This document shows, one piece after another, positions 18,641 to 29,690 of a stretch of DNA of 64,000 nt (position 1 is its first letter; each line of letters opens with the position of its first letter). The notes under the pieces are model-generated. The model did no database searches, was not told the DNA's origin, and was given only the letters and a program-made list of their open reading frames with translations. Location of the stretch: positions 44,750,101-44,814,100 of the forward strand of contig CM069872.1 in assembly GCA_036172665.1 (NCBI GenBank), written 5' to 3'. A program made the translations under genes and the position numbers. The stretch is from Prosopocoilus inquinatus. Its lineage: Eukaryota; Arthropoda; Insecta; Coleoptera; Lucanidae.

Positions 18641-18642
18641 CT

Positions 18643-18654
18643 TAAAATTCAAAA
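18643..18654. repeat. Left direct repeat flanking the 312-bp array
   Basis: TTAAAATTCAAAA (18,642-18,654) is repeated exactly at 21,070-21,082, immediately outside the two ends of the array. The most natural reading is a 13-bp target-site duplication, made when the array inserted as one unit. The sequence is AT-rich, so chance identity is not excluded. Confidence 0.5.
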
Positions 18655-18834
18655 TATAAAATAGCGACATCTTACTATCGCTTTTTGACCTAACATTGCA
18701 GTAGGATAGAAAAAATTGAAGCGGGATTTGCTCCTAATGAGTCACCCATGCAAGGCGGCCATGCTTGCTGTCAAAGCATAATGAAAGATTTTAGAAAAAA
18801 TTTGTGCAAATCGTTTCTGATTGCAGTGAGAACC

Positions 18835-18899
18835 TCGAGCAGCCTCTGGACAGCTGTTTCAGCCCTGCTTGGGGCTTCTTCAGCAGAAACGTAGCTCGA
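18835..18899 (-). ncRNA. Hammerhead ribozyme motif, minus copy 1
   Basis: Read on the minus strand: core box CTGAAGA (18,883-18,877; consensus CUGANGA), helix II AGCCC/GGGCT, GAAA box, then helix III with the palindromic ACAGCTGT and predicted cleavage after the C at 18,849 (GUC). Helix I inner strands are GTTTCTG/CAGAGGC and outer strands TCGAGC/GCTCGA. Confidence 0.75.
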
Positions 18900-19146
18900 C
18901 ATTCCCACTGCAGACCAAAAACGACTTGCCCAATTTATTCGCAATTGCGATGTAAGAATGATGAACATATAAAATAGCGACATCTTACTATCGCTTTTTG
19001 ACCTAACATTGCAGTAGGATAGACAAATTGAAGCGGGATTTGCTCCTAATGAGTCCCCCATGCAAGGCGGCCATGCTTGCTGTCAAAGCATAATGAAAGA
19101 TTTTAGAAAAAATTTGTGCAAATCGTTTTTGATTGCAGTGAGAACC

Positions 19147-19211
19147 TCGAGCAGCCTCTGGACAGCTGTTTCAGCCCTGCTTGGGGCTTCTTCAGCAGAA
19201 ACGTAGCTCGA
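19147..19211 (-). ncRNA. Hammerhead ribozyme motif, minus copy 2
   Basis: Same motif as minus copy 1, shifted by exactly 312 bases, with predicted cleavage after 19,161. Core boxes, helix II and both parts of helix I are unchanged. Confidence 0.75.
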
Positions 19212-19458
19212 CATTCCCACTGCAGACCAAAAACGACTTGCTCAATTTATTCGCAATTGCGATGTAAGAATGATGAACATATAAAATAGCGACATCTTAC
19301 TATCGCTTTTTGACCTAACATTGCAGTAGGATAGACAAATTGAAGCGGGATTTGCTCCTAATGAGTCCCCCATGCAAGGCGGCCATGCTTGCTGTCAAAG
19401 CATAATGAAAGATTTTAGAAAAAATTTGTGCAAATCGTTTTTGATTGCAGTGAGAACC

Positions 19459-19484
19459 TCGAGCAGCCTCTGGACAGCTGTTTC
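19459..19484 (-). ncRNA. Truncated hammerhead motif at the inversion point
   Basis: Only the 3' half remains: outer helix I strand, cleavage site and the CAG/CTG of helix III. The sequence breaks in the GAAA box, where the plus-strand block starts. It lacks the CUGANGA box, so it cannot fold as a complete ribozyme on its own. Confidence 0.7.
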
Positions 19485-19715
19485 AAAAACGATTTGCACA
19501 AATTTTTTCTAAAATCTTTCATTATGCTTTGACAGCAAGCATGGCCGCCTTGCATGGGGGACTCATTAGGAGCAAATCCCGCTTCAATTTGTCTATCCTA
19601 CTGCAATGTTAGGTCAAAAAGCGATAGTAAGATGTCGCTATTTTATATGTTCATCATTCTTACATCGCAATTGCGAATAAATTGGGCAAGTCGTTTTTGG
19701 TCTGCAGTGGGAATG

Positions 19716-19780
19716 TCGAGCTACGTTTCTGCTGAAGAAGCCCCAAGCAGGGCTGAAACAGCTGTCCAGAGGCTGCTCGA
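19716..19780 (+). ncRNA. Hammerhead ribozyme motif, plus copy 1
   Basis: Core CTGAAGA at 19,732-19,738 and GAAA at 19,755-19,758. Helix II is AGCCC/GGGCT with a CAAGCA loop. Helix III is A-U and C-G pairs closed by the self-complementary tetraloop AGCT. Predicted cleavage follows C 19,766. Helix I is 7 bp (GTTTCTG/CAGAGGC with two G-U pairs), an internal loop, then TCGAGC/GCTCGA. Beyond it GCAGTGGGAA (from 19,704) can pair with the segment ending CACTGC at 19,792, with an internal mismatch. The base pair closing helix II is A-U where G-C is usual. Confidence 0.8.
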
Positions 19781-20027
19781 GGTCCTCACTGCAATCAAAA
19801 ACGATTTGCACAGTTTTTTTCTAAAATCTTTCATTATGCTTTGACAGCAAGCATGGCCGCCTTGCATGGGGGACTCATTAGGAGCAAATCCCGCTTCAAT
19901 TTGTCTATCCTATTGCAATGTTAGGTCAAAAAGCGATAGTAAGATGTCGCTATTTTATATGTTCATCATTCTTACGTCGCAATTGCGAATAAATTGGGCA
20001 AGTCGTTTTTGGTCTGCAGTGGGAATG

Positions 20028-20092
20028 TCGAGCTATGTTTCTGCTGAAGAAGCCCCAAGCAGGGCTGAAACAGCTGTCCAGAGGCTGCTCGA
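20028..20092 (+). ncRNA. Hammerhead ribozyme motif, plus copy 2
   Basis: CTGAAGA at 20,044-20,050, predicted cleavage after 20,078. Identical core to plus copy 1. One change, C to T in GAGCTACG/GAGCTATG, falls in the helix I internal loop. Confidence 0.78.
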
Positions 20093-20339
20093 GGTTCTCA
20101 CTGCAATCAAAAACGATTTGCACAAATTTTTTCTAAAATCTTTCATTATGCTTTGACAGCAAGCATGGCCGCCTTGCATGGGGGACTCATTAGGAGCAAA
20201 TCCCGCTTCAATTTGTCTATCCTACTGCAATGTTAGGTCAAAAAGCGATAGTAAGATGTCGCTATTTTATATGTTCATCATTCTTACATCGCAATTGCGA
20301 ATAAATTGGGCAAGTCGTTTTTGGTCTGCAGTGGGAATT

Positions 20340-20404
20340 TCGAGCTACGTTTCTGCTGAAGAAGCCCCAAGCAGGGCTGAAACAGCTGTCCAGAGGCTGC
20401 TCGA
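20340..20404 (+). ncRNA. Hammerhead ribozyme motif, plus copy 3
   Basis: CTGAAGA at 20,356-20,362, predicted cleavage after 20,390. Core unchanged; the only nearby difference (GAATT for GAATG) lies just outside helix I. Confidence 0.78.
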
Positions 20405-20651
20405 GGTTCTCACTGCAATCAAAAACGATTTGCACAATTTTTTTCTAAAATCTTTCATTATGCTTTGACAGCAAGCATGGCCGCCTTGCATGGGGGACTC
20501 ATTAGGAGCAAATCCCGCTTCAATTTGTCTATCCTATTGCAATGTTAGGTCAAAAAGCGATAGTAAGATGTCGCTATTTTATATGTTCATCATTCTTACA
20601 TCGCAATTGCGAATAAATTGGGCAAGTCGTTTTTGGTCTGCAGTGGGAATG

Positions 20652-20716
20652 TCGAGCTACGTTTCTGCTGAAGAAGCCCCAAGCAGGGCTGAAACAGCTG
20701 TCCAGAGGCTGCTCGA
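20652..20716 (+). ncRNA. Hammerhead ribozyme motif, plus copy 4
   Basis: CTGAAGA at 20,668-20,674, predicted cleavage after 20,702. Core and helices unchanged. Confidence 0.78.
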
Positions 20717-20963
20717 GGTTCTCACTGCAATCAAAAACGATTTGCACAAATTTTTTCTAAAATCTTTCATTATGCTTTGACAGCAAGCATGGCCGCCTTG
20801 CATGGGGGACTCATTAGGAGCAAATCCCGCTTCAATTTGTCTATCCTACTGCAATGTTAGGTCAAAAAGCGATAGTAAGATGTCGCTATTTTATATGTTC
20901 ATCATTCTTACATCGCAATTGCGAATAAATTGGGCAAGTCGTTTTTGGTCTGCAGTGGGAATG

Positions 20964-21028
20964 TCGAGCTACGTTTCTGCTGAAGAAGCCCCAAGCAGGG
21001 CTGAAACAGCTGTCCAGATGCTGCTCGA
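20964..21028 (+). ncRNA. Hammerhead ribozyme motif, plus copy 5
   Basis: CTGAAGA at 20,980-20,986, predicted cleavage after 21,014. A G to T change gives CAGATGC in the 3' strand of helix I, replacing one G-U wobble with a U-U mismatch, so this copy may be weaker. Confidence 0.74.
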
Positions 21029-21069
21029 GGTTCTCACTGCAATCAAAAACGATTTGCACAAATTTTTTT

Positions 21070-21082
21070 TTAAAATTCAAAA
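21070..21082. repeat. Right direct repeat flanking the 312-bp array
   Basis: Second copy of TTAAAATTCAAAA, directly after the poly-T end of the array. See the left copy at 18,642-18,654. Confidence 0.5.
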
Positions 21083-23835
21083 GTTGCCAATTTGTATCTA
21101 TGATGTTGCTGATGAATAGGTTTCGTAAAGAAGACCAAATTTTTTACAAAATCCAGAAAACAAGCATTAATTAATTCTCAGTCTCGATTTTTCAACTTAC
21201 TTTCGGTTTTCCTTTTTGTCATTACCGCCAATTATATTTGTTGATACTACCTTTACAGCCTACTTTCAGACATTATTCCTCCAACCAAGATTATTTAACT
21301 TGCTTCCAAAAGAGATAAACAGGTTGGTAGTGTAGCAATTATAAAAAGAAATGAAAGAGAAGTTAGTCAACATCAGAAAGTACCTTTCAATAGTGCTAGG
21401 TTTAGAACTGAAAACTTTGACATTTGGCACACGCAAAAATCATTGGCAAACGACCAAATATAATATGAAACTATCAAAAAGAAGAAAGAGTTCATAATCC
21501 TTTAAAATACCCCATTTTTAGACACCCCAAAAGCACTTCAAGATCTATAATCCACCAAAAATTGGACACACAAAATATACCTAAAACTCACCAGAAATTT
21601 GAGACATTTTATTTTTAAGTATTCAACTCTTGCTTTTACACACACCAAAATGGCTTTTCATTTATGGACCAGGGCATTGAACACTGTAGAATCCTTGTAA
21701 AAAACGAAAAGTTTAAGTAGCGACATCCTGCGATCGCTTTTTGACCTGACATTGAATTAGGATTGATAAATTGAAACCAGTTTGCTACATAATAAGTTAT
21801 CCCATACAATGCTCGAGGGATCCACTGCAAGAAAAACCGATTTGCAACAAAATTTTTTGAAACTTGTGGAAGCAAGGAAAATGAGCCCCAAATGTTATTA
21901 AAATAATTGAAAAGGAAATCAAAATCTTTAATTTTTTAGACATTGGTCTTATTTCTGGAGCAGACCGATTGGATACATGAAGAAAACGATTAAAAGTTCA
22001 CCTATAAGCCTCAGAAAACCTTCAATCAAAATTAATTTCTTGACCGGAGCAATTACAACAATAGTTACAATTACAATAATAGTTCAACATCTGTTGAATT
22101 GATCGAATCCATTTTAGGATAAAACAGACTGGTCAATGATTGGTTCTTAAAGAAATTATTTGTTTCACATTAATTAATCTGAGCTTTCTTTAATTAGACA
22201 AATTTTATCTTCTTTTGAACAATAATCTGTCCCATTCTGAACTTTGTCTTGTACGATACATTAAGTAGGCGATTAAGAATAACAAAACTCTGTTGTTATT
22301 ATGAAGAACAAACATTTGTTTCCCTTTGCGAAGAGGGATTACGACATTACATTCAATGTGTGCAGTAACATAAATAAAAATAACGTAACTAGATTAACTC
22401 GGTTTATCAATAATTTATTATAAACATATATAAACAAAATAACCGGTATGAGGCGGATTTGCGAACTGTTTGTATGCAGCTCGTCCTTGCTTACCATTGA
22501 TTAACGACTTTTAAGTTGTTAACAACAGTTAGGAAGTTATTTTTAGCTGATTTTAGCAGTCGAGTGAATTTTTCTTGTAAAATGCGTTCTAATCGATTTA
22601 AGTGCGTCAGAGGAGACAATGCCTTTGAAAGATAAACACTTCCGCTTACCTAACGATATCGTAATTGCGTCAAGATTTCGTATGTCCTCAATAAAGTTCG
22701 TAGACGGTCAAGTTTCGTGTCGTTTCATTTAATTTGTTAAAAAAATCACACTTTCATTTTTTGAATTATATATAGTTTACATCATCTGTTTCAATTCGCT
22801 GGACCAGTTTTAGTAAATTTATAAATAAAATAAATTTCTTAATCACGTTAGAACTTGAAGACATAGCAGAATAGCTTCTGGTGTACCGCATTATTAATTC
22901 TTTTATTGTCGATGTTTCGTTTTCGTTGACGACGCTGCGACTCTTCTTATCGCTAAAGATTAAGCCTCTGCGACACACTATTTAAAATATCAGCAGGACA
23001 GCAAGCACCAACTTGAAGAAGGCTTCTGTAACAAGTATGAAACGTTGGCAATGAAAGAATGAATAACGCGATACTCCGGAAGCCCTATGCATATAATTTC
23101 TTGAAATACTGCTGGCTTGTTTCTTTATATTTGAAAGGAATTAGCTCTAAGTTTTAATCAAAAATTGCAACATTGCTTTTTGAAATAATTGTATTACTTT
23201 TATTTTTCGCCTTTTCTAGTTTTTGTTTCTACTGAAATTATGCGAGAATTAGAAAAGCTTATTCCGATTCACCATTCTATCCCATATTTAAATTCACTAT
23301 TAAAATCTGCCTCTGCTTTAATGTTTTGACATCGGATTCAAAATTTTCCCGGTCTACTTTTTGATTTACAATTTTCACAAATAAATATAACAAATTTGCT
23401 GAGTTGAAGCAACATTAAAAGCTGTACAAAGGTTGTATGAAGAAAAATAAGAGTTTGTATTGTTAAAATAACGAAGTCTAGGAGAAGTTCAAAACAATTT
23501 CAGGATTCAGACAAGGATGTATTTTAAGCTCTCTGTCGCTCTCACTTGTGTTGGATAAGACTTCAAGAAGCAAGAGAAAGGCATCCCAATACGAAGTTGG
23601 AAGATAGAAGAAATGTTAGTATCAAACATAAGTTCTGCTGAGGCTTGGGTAATATTGACAAAACGAAAATCGTGATGATGAGAAGAAAAATGAAACAAGA
23701 AATTTTTAGGAAACAAGGAAACGCCAAACGCAACCAAAATGGAAATATTTAAGACAGTGGTCACTGTAATTAATTAATATATGCTTCGGAGTCATGAGCT
23801 TGTAAGAAATAACAAAAAAGAAAAACCGAAGGTGA
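21083..23835. other. Intergenic, one repeat relic
   Basis: AT-rich sequence without a recognisable gene. A diverged relic of the 312-bp repeat sits at 21,713-21,855 (listed separately). The short open frames here have no conserved features. Confidence 0.5.
21713..21855. repeat. Diverged relic of the 312-bp repeat, ribozyme lost
   Basis: Bases 21,713-21,815 match the minus-orientation part of the unit (GCGACATC..., CGCTTTTTGACCTGACATTG). From about 21,816 the sequence switches to the plus-orientation part just 3' of the ribozyme (TGCTCGAGGGATCCACTGCA, then CCGATTTGCAAC). The catalytic boxes are absent. It is therefore another inverted junction of the same family, older than the array. Confidence 0.7.
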
Positions 23836-28374: not shown

Positions 28375-29500
28375 ACTTGCACTATTGCACTGCGAAACCA
28401 AGATATAAAAACATTTGATTTTTTATGTATATGTATCTTAAATTTAATTAACACGGCCCTAAGGTACTGAAGCCTTTTCTACATTCCACCGCTGCCACCA
28501 AAAATGTAACGGACTGATAAATAAAATAAATGATAAAAGAAGGTGGATAAACAGACAACTTCTTCTTCTTTATTTTTTTCTTCAGGGATGTACACACACA
28601 TCCCCATGATTTCAAAACTTTTTCTCACGTTTGGGTTTTGATTCCGACATCACATCAAAATCTTATTAATCCTTTATATTCCGTCTGTTTTTGAGTTTCC
28701 TGTACAGGCCTCTTTTTAACTTCTCTGCATTTCTCTCGAATACTTTCTTAATATAAACAATTTTGACAGCTCTGTCACCTCTGTAATATATTTATTAAAA
28801 ATTGGACTTCTAATTACTAATGGTTGTGTTGTAGTTATAAATAATTCATTATTTAGTTGTAACCGCAGTAGACCGTAATTTTATGTTAACAGTTTGGTTT
28901 GGCATTTTAAATAAAACAAATTTAATTTAATGTAATTATATTATACGTCAAATTGTGACAATTCAAGTTCGATTGATAATAATAATTGATAAATTTGTAC
29001 GTGAATGTACCTCGTTATGAAAAGAAAATATTGCAACGTTGTCTACTTCGGACTGTACGTAGTAACCTTAAAATTCAAAATAAAAGTACATTCGTTGTAA
29101 AAATTTAGTTATATGTATACAGTTGCGAGCAATAAATTTTGGTCAACATCTTCAATGATTTTCAATTGTCAAAGATGTGTATTTAACTTATATTTTATTA
29201 AAAATAAGGAGAATCATGTATTAATTTTGAGTACTGGGAACGTTTCTTAAAAATGTAATTTATTTTCGGCGCTTTTTGGGGAAAAGACAGGATATTTATA
29301 TGAAAATTTTAATTTTTAAAATGAAACCTGACGTTTTCATTGACAGCGACGACCAAAACTTATGTCTCGCGGCTGTACTTTATACTACATTCACTAGAAT
29401 TTTACAGCATACTGCGATTACAAATAAATAAAGGTATACAGCCGTATTCGTAAAGAATTCTAAATAATATGACTATAAATGATTTCAATTATTAAAAATC
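28375..29500. other. Intergenic, no gene recognised
   Basis: AT-rich; nothing supportable. Confidence 0.5.
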
Positions 29501-29502
29501 TT

Positions 29503-29690
29503 GTTGCAAATCGTTTTTGATTGTAGCGGATCCCTCGAGCATCCTCTGTACAACTGTTTCAGCCCTATTTGGGGCTTCATCAGCAGAAACATACATAGCT
29601 CGAGAGTTCCACTGCAAACCAAAACAATTGTCCAAGGAAATTCGCAAAAAAAGCGATCGTAGTATGTCGCTTATTTAAGCTTTTAATTTT
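29503..29690. repeat. Solo diverged copy of the 312-bp hammerhead repeat
   Basis: Bases 29,503-29,645 match the unit in minus orientation, from TTGCAAATCGTTTTTGATTG through the ribozyme to CCACTGCAAACCAAAAC. From about 29,646 the sequence turns to plus orientation (AAAAAAAGCGATCGTAGTATG). So this copy also has an internal inversion junction. It differs from the array units at many positions and is therefore an independent, older insertion. Confidence 0.82.
29535..29603 (-). ncRNA. Hammerhead ribozyme motif, diverged solo copy
   Basis: On the minus strand the core reads CTGATGA (29,583-29,577), the textbook sequence. It is followed by helix II AGCCC/GGGCT with a CAAATA loop, GAAA, and helix III AC/GT closed by the loop AGTT. 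Predicted cleavage follows A 29,549 (GUA, allowed by the NUH rule). Inner helix I is TTTCTG/CAGAGG and outer TCGAGC/GCTCGA. The core is kept although the rest of the repeat has diverged. Confidence 0.75.

Follow-up and report, generated by a model that had tools for sequence, protein, structure and literature searches.

A hammerhead ribozyme array that is a single head-to-head insertion of a dispersed, retrozyme-type element

The stretch of DNA considered here (the window, 64,000 nucleotides) holds at 18655–21069 exactly one element, built of two arms of a 312-bp repeat that lie on opposite strands and meet head-to-head, with the core of a type I hammerhead ribozyme recurring along both. The left arm (18655–19485, minus strand) comprises 2.7 units and runs from an outer end, B, at u197 to an inner end at u300, positions being numbered from u1, the first base 3′ of the predicted GUC cut. 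The right arm (19483–21069, plus strand) comprises 5.1 units, with its inner end at u29 and its outer end, A, at u60. The arms share a 3-bp overlap, or microhomology, at the head-to-head junction (19483–19485), and Tandem Repeats Finder reports two period-312 arrays, at 18654–19485 (2.7 copies) and 19483–21076 (5.1 copies). On either side stands a 13-bp target-site duplication, TTAAAATTCAAAA, the left copy at 18642–18654 with AAC directly before it and the right copy at 21070–21082 with GTT directly after; another occurrence of this sequence at 29068 is unrelated to the element. Hammerhead cores lie on the minus strand at 18849–18883 and 19161–19195, and on the plus strand at 19732–19766 (predicted cut after 19766), 20044–20078 (predicted cut after 20078), 20356–20390, 20668–20702 and 20980–21014. 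A preliminary description had presented 18655–21069 as one tandem array of hammerheads spaced 312 bases apart. These coordinates are indeed the limits of the element and the spacing holds within each arm, though not across the whole span, where the arms are inverted; the single tandem array gives way to five plus and two minus cores set head-to-head, a target-site duplication and membership of a dispersed family. The array represents a single insertion of a retrozyme-type retroelement that is dispersed and present in high copy number, and is not satellite DNA. No long terminal repeat (LTR) is visible in its structure, no open reading frame of at least 150 aa lies in 18655–21069, and its GC content (0.429 for the unit, 0.427 for the element) is below 50%, as in metazoan non-LTR retrozymes.

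The assembly that contains the window (650 Mb, 173 contigs) was searched with one unit as query, and the best 40 of 1475 candidates were scored, giving 141 matches that were grouped by hand into 33 loci, the window and 32 others; the loci are therefore the best-scoring, younger insertions. A minus piece followed by a plus piece, abutting within 80 bp, was taken as a pair of arms, and unpaired pieces were left out, namely singles in L015 (two), L025, L026 and L040 and edge pieces in L041 and L042. All 33 loci contain one or more head-to-head insertions in which the minus arm precedes the plus arm, and the 41 pairs reduce to 38 insertions once three duplicates are removed, two of which have 24-bp repeats that are duplicated sequence and not target-site duplications. 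The outer ends are fixed and always unlike: end A falls within u54–65 in 35 of the 38 insertions and end B within u194–204 in 34, none has two like ends (0/38, or 0/41 before duplicate removal, with end classes u40–80 and u165–240), and free end choice would produce this result in 38 insertions with a chance of 3.6e-12. End B is on the left in 23 insertions and end A in 15. A distance of at most 10 nt from one of the two fixed sites is found for 70 of 76 outer ends but for 4 of 76 inner ends, which are scattered over the unit. Junction overlaps measure 2–15 bp in 21 insertions, 1 bp in four, are longer in two and absent in two, and nine of the 38 junctions carry 1–6 extra bases; simulated random joins have a mean overlap of 0.69 bp, by a slightly different measure. 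Arms exceed one unit in 33/41 cases for A and 27/41 for B, and the median total length of an insertion is about 3.1 units. Elements abut in L027 and L028, including one plus-then-minus contact of an 86% copy with a younger one, and at L035:4899–5664 a mini-hairpin of this family (36-bp minus, 207-bp plus) is tandemly repeated three times at ~262 bp.

An exact common stretch of at least 11 bp across the element was found in 30 of the 38 insertions as against 22 of 1406 mismatched left–right pairs, and duplications of 12–14 bp occur in 25 of the 38. The target pattern resembles AAC, then 12–13 AT-rich base pairs, then GTT. With end B turned left (n=25), the left flank, RAC, has A at −2 in 23 and C at −1 in 15 insertions, while the right flank, GTT, has its G in 12 and its two T's in 18 and 15; the duplication is 82% AT compared with 66.6% in the surroundings. 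The window insertion site, AAC followed by TTAAAATTCAAAA and GTT, fits this family pattern. When the flanks of L018 were joined with one copy of the duplication and searched, the 40 scored matches (of 591 candidates) were nearly full length at 96–98%, and L035:303–513 aligned as an empty site, without the insertion. Since an empty site was found, the L018 copy was inserted into a pre-existing repeat and did not arise by local amplification. L018 (3006–3017) and, in reverse complement, L040 occupy the same site, AAC followed by TAAGCTTAATGC and GTT, in the same dispersed host repeat with different junctions; they were counted as separate insertions, and the shared site suggests a sequence-preferring endonuclease.

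The unit copies of one insertion tend to agree with each other. Of the 31 insertions that have two or more copies, 26 are uniform at u216 (T or A), which varies more than any other site away from the ends; in 2000 shuffles the mean was 9.2 and the maximum 17. The two arms agree there in 22/27 (binomial p 0.0008 against one half), and at u203 agreement is likewise 26/31 (shuffle mean 19.4, maximum 24). This fits mostly one template per insertion, either one circle read repeatedly or a linear oligomer from a uniform source array. Successive units in the right arm of the window element (19483–21069) read alternately C T C T C at u147, a pattern to which a change at u48 is linked; this is probably the result of a later two-unit duplication. 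A dimeric circle as template, suggested by this alternation, is disfavoured because the left arm reads C C C at u147, and the later duplication suffices.

The 35-nt core CTGAAGAAGCCCCAAGCAGGGCTGAAACAGCTGTC (CTGAAGA, helix II, GAAA, helix III, GTC) is identical in all seven window copies, each of which presents CUGANGA, helix II, GAAA and GUC in the order first described. Read by eye, it consists of CUGAAGA, helix II formed by AGCCC/GGGCU, GAA, helix III ACAGCUGU, which is 2 bp with a palindromic AGCU loop, and the cleavage C; helix I pairs UUCUG with CAGAG and is extended, as had been noted, by an outer complementary stem, CGAGC/GCUCG. A motif-plus-stem scan of the window gave eight matches, five plus and three minus, the eighth being by its sequence a relic near 29.56 kb, and the same scan of 30 shuffles (one strand) gave no match in 29 and one match in the remaining one. 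Across the genome, where 74 of 83220 candidates were scored, there are at least eight matches to the Rfam hammerhead model RF00163, seven of them above the cut-off, and two of these relatives reached 42.6 and 40.1 bits when re-scored with it. Other, older families of type I hammerhead that share the CTGAAGA...GAAA core occur at L043:154–188 (minus), L064:593–626 (minus) and L065:657–690 (plus), the latter two exceeding the RF00163 gathering score; the L065 family has one full-length match, its remaining matches are 69–85% fragments, and its ends are not definable. An alignment of five hammerheads—the array, the two relatives that pass RF00163, a relic beside a Penelope-like element (PLE) of the same genome and that PLE's own hammerhead—has 85.3% of its cells paired, compared with at most 46.4% in slid versions, and shows compensatory changes in 8 of 14 pairs. 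On four of the five measures no shuffle out of 500 reached these values, and on the fifth, the number of pair types, 62 of 500 did; the PLE row, with helix II off by one in our own reading, lowers rather than raises the support for the structure. The invariant core and this covariation bear out the seven type I hammerheads as real, their cleavage being predicted.

Folding calculations predict that the dimer would be the active form, the monomer hammerhead looking weak. The 312-nt unit folds with a z of −6.06 relative to shuffles, none of 100 being as low, and when two copies are folded together the predicted minimum free energy (MFE) structure is a double hammerhead (−59.1 kcal/mol, compared with 2 × −27.6 for monomers) in which helix I and an 8-bp palindromic helix III would form between the strands. 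A short helix III and action as a dimer are known for newt and axolotl repeats (PMC7229834; PMC6155905). The earlier expectation of transcripts that cleave themselves into 312-base monomers may apply to each strand separately but not across both arms: by the predicted positions, the five cut sites of a plus transcript would release four full monomers, and the two of a minus transcript one.

A search of the genome for the GIY-YIG domain (PF01541) gave 2232 candidates, 150 of which were scored, with reading frames of up to 788 aa; none of these 150 lies in the window, for which no reverse transcriptase scan was made. Among the 150 there are 48 neighbouring pairs within 10 kb, 47 of them minus-then-plus and none plus-then-minus, the single minus–minus pair being 2604 bp apart, one tandem unit. 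In L043 one reading frame of 787 aa encodes both RVT_1 (E 5e-15) and GIY-YIG (E 9.5e-7); the locus also has a 187-bp repeat with two copies in the left arm, a 12-bp duplication and, by our own reading of the sequence, a minimal hammerhead whose helix III is palindromic. The PLE sample comprised L043 and 14 further copies (L044–L057), which were picked for head-to-head endonuclease matches, so that only their unlike ends and duplications count as evidence. Unlike ends are present in 15/15, one ending in CTATTTAT and the other with a 39-nt tail ending in TTGTGATTA, and duplications of 11–17 bp accompany them, 15 of 15 reaching at least 11 bp as against 0 of 210 mismatched pairs. PLE and retrozyme share an insertion rule: head-to-head arms, two fixed unlike ends and duplications of about 12–14 bp.

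We put at roughly three in four the probability that the window element is one non-autonomous retrozyme-type insertion whose RNA was copied onto both cut target strands by a Penelope-type enzyme. From the insertion anatomy we infer two cuts and two priming events. A minus–plus product has cDNA on both target 3′ ends, so priming took place on each strand; the two outer ends, being fixed, imply two fixed start sites; and because the ends are always unlike, the strands do not choose their start independently. The Penelope-type insertion mode, in which both strands are extended from two internal starts into a head-to-head product, is matched here at the level of anatomy. In the proposed course of events, hammerheads acting in pairs, as dimers, would divide the retrozyme RNA into 312-nt units, which would then be circularised, and the Penelope-type enzyme, for which the PLE family described above is the putative source, would make two staggered cuts around the 12–13 bp between AAC and GTT and so expose two target 3′ ends. 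Each of these would serve as primer for copying the retrozyme RNA, one at site A (~u60) and the other at site B (~u199), each polymerase may travel round more than one unit, and the two cDNA ends would be joined, often at microhomology, into a head-to-head array with a 12–13 bp duplication. One enzyme dimer gripping one RNA at two different sites would yield unlike ends. A more specific version, double rolling-circle target-primed reverse transcription of one circular RNA by a Penelope-type dimer with obligate subunits on A and B, is tentative, and we rate its chances at somewhat below even. If it is true, both halves of the insertion would be written from RNA, without a cDNA-templated second strand, and obligate asymmetric loading would show itself in ends that are never equal.

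Several results weigh against this interpretation or parts of it. Even u216 is discordant in five insertions, between arms in L011 and L037 and within an arm in the second insertion of L039, in L041 and in L042 (L041 and L042 being the same insertion), while agreement at u198, u147, u261 and u31, which are rare variants or located at end B, is not above shuffles; the uniformity of units rests mainly on u216, and over all sites copies within one insertion differ by 0.63–0.74%, as compared with 0.80% between insertions. The covariance-model check proposed in the preliminary description came out divided: an Rfam scan of the window gave no family at gathering, the top hammerhead match on a 3.8-kb stretch was HH9 (16.4 bits, E 2.5), and RF00163, applied to 71 nt only, scored 23.8 bits (E 2.8e-4, at 20038–20084), below its gathering score of 34. 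The active fold of the monomer is predicted at −16.1 kcal/mol as against an MFE of −27.6, about 11.5 worse. Start sites are 39 nt apart in the PLE and ~138 nt apart in the retrozyme, the similarity between their sequences is unconvincing (p 0.26 over the unit and 0.015 on a selected part), homology of the start sites was set aside as weak, and the AAC/GTT preference is weaker among the 15 PLE copies. The idea that sites A and B lie in one RNA loop failed, such a loop occurring in 3.8% of samples with 17 of 150 control pairs as high. Finally, the anole PLE in vitro showed no strand difference in where it starts (PMC11167929), and the unlike ends are therefore unexplained by that work.

Some of these points favour a different account of the RNA, itself compatible with dual-strand PLE priming, in which the hammerhead is weak or vestigial and mobility depends on a linear oligomeric transcript rather than on circles. 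The low Rfam score and poor monomer fold accord with it, a uniform source array would also give uniform units, and an anole PLE with a mutated hammerhead inserted equally well (PMC11167929); we nonetheless consider it unlikely, given a core that is the same in 7/7 copies and covaries among relatives, and a dimer predicted to be active. A lower probability still attaches to transport of the RNA by a long interspersed nuclear element (LINE) through conventional target-primed reverse transcription, with twin priming as in L1. In L1, twin priming likewise gives a head-to-head 5′ inversion within one insertion, with target-site duplications and microhomology; inversion is not obligatory there, being found in a minority of insertions, and the second end is variable rather than fixed. 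The L1 end pattern is not matched by the present family, in which every locus examined is inverted with both outer ends fixed, and the genome holds a PLE with the same end rule, in a comparison that covered PLEs. LINEs are named beside PLEs as a possible enzyme source (PMC7229834).

Two further explanations were rejected and appear highly improbable. Satellite DNA with a hammerhead, of the newt or cave-cricket type, amplified by unequal exchange and later inverted by chance, would account for tandem 312-bp units and for an every-second-unit variant in part of the right arm (u147), which is best read as the later two-unit duplication. It would not account for short arrays at 33 dispersed loci, all of which are head-to-head, end at fixed positions and in most cases have target-site duplications, or for the empty site; and as these 'tandem repeats' arise as single insertions, the array form is explained without satellite amplification. 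Self-priming, in which a single cDNA would fold back on itself and be extended along its own sequence, has been proposed for head-to-head copies of Adineta Penelope elements, on an antisense template, from junction palindromes (PMC3846280). A fold-back of this kind predicts adjacent inner ends. The two inner ends of one insertion are distant here, lying at most 20 nt apart in 2 of 38 insertions where 5.0 are expected (median distance 86), and the second outer end is fixed.

The comparisons with published systems that follow refer to portions of the papers cited. Metazoan non-LTR retrozymes (Acropora, Mytilus, Ambystoma; PMC7229834) carry a type I hammerhead in 150–450 bp repeats and have target-site duplications of more than 4 bp, both matched here, and the axolotl retrozyme shares the short helix III with a palindromic tetraloop; the unit had been thought possibly undescribed, yet the class to which it belongs is already known. 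The class is further characterised by self-cleavage, by circular RNA in tissue and by the lack of LTR, PBS and PPT. Those retrozymes form direct tandem multimers; here the units are direct within an arm and the arms head-to-head in 33/33 loci, with two fixed unlike ends at every locus examined. The main text of PMC7229834, supplement aside, contains no occurrence of 'inverted' or 'head-to-head', in the available text of a 2020 review (PMC7761336) 'inverted' stands only in a reference title, and a literature search for retrozymes with twin priming or head-to-head structure, which did not cover the 2014 and 2017 papers on PLE hammerheads, found nothing; the architecture may already be described elsewhere. 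The newt satellite hammerhead repeats resemble the window family in their ~330-bp units, weak helix III and dimer hammerhead, but are described as tandem satellite, with no head-to-head insertion mentioned in the relevant portions of PMC7229834 and PMC6155905.

PLEs offer a closer parallel in the way they insert. The typical Penelope structure has inverted pseudo-LTRs (pLTRs), a tail on one of them and 8–10 bp duplications, and some Adineta copies lack duplications or inversion, the authors favouring self-priming (PMC3846280). The purified anole PLE protein (PAc) cleaves both strands, extends each of them and initiates at two internal positions in the RNA, hammerhead cleavage being unnecessary for insertion in vitro (PMC11167929). 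Head-to-head inversion, short duplications and a minimal hammerhead are common to the Adineta and anole elements and the window family, to which the tail on one end can also be likened (PMC3846280; PMC11167929), as are two internal reverse transcription starts with cutting and extension of both strands (PMC11167929), which here follow from insertion anatomy. Unlike PLEs, the window array has no long open reading frame, and its start sites lie further apart; its family has 12–13 bp duplications, compared with 8–10 bp in Adineta, and differs from Adineta Pen1, in which the pLTRs are mostly direct (PMC3846280). PLEs had been proposed as a strong candidate for moving animal retrozymes, named without insertion-end evidence (PMC7229834), and here both are found in one genome sharing an unusual insertion rule. 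This rule is a simple signature that can be tested in any assembled animal genome, and a retrozyme RNA with two defined start sites makes the open question of how these elements move testable with purified enzyme.

Some minor observations concern the host and the remainder of the window. Telomere-like TTGGG/CCCAA repeats stand at five of the six contig ends examined (L058 and L060–L063, not L059). Such repeats are known from some beetles (scarabaeoids, Attelabidae) as well as from species of Neuroptera, Odonata and Hymenoptera (PMC8233369; PMC12564400), so the beetle-type genome supposed at the outset fits these ends without being proven by them. The junction palindrome at 19403–19534 matches the Rfam mir-335 model with 46.2 bits, below its gathering score of 64, and is probably not a microRNA; a transcript crossing the junction could fold into a long hairpin and is a possible source of small RNA. 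Two old relics of the family lie downstream of the element, both head-to-head with unlike ends. The one at 21715–21857 (79–81%) has a minus arm (outer end u189) followed by a plus arm (outer end u54) and does not span the hammerhead core, while that at 29494–29677 (82–83%) has a minus arm (outer end u53), which retains a diverged CTGATGA hammerhead, followed by a plus arm (outer end u191).

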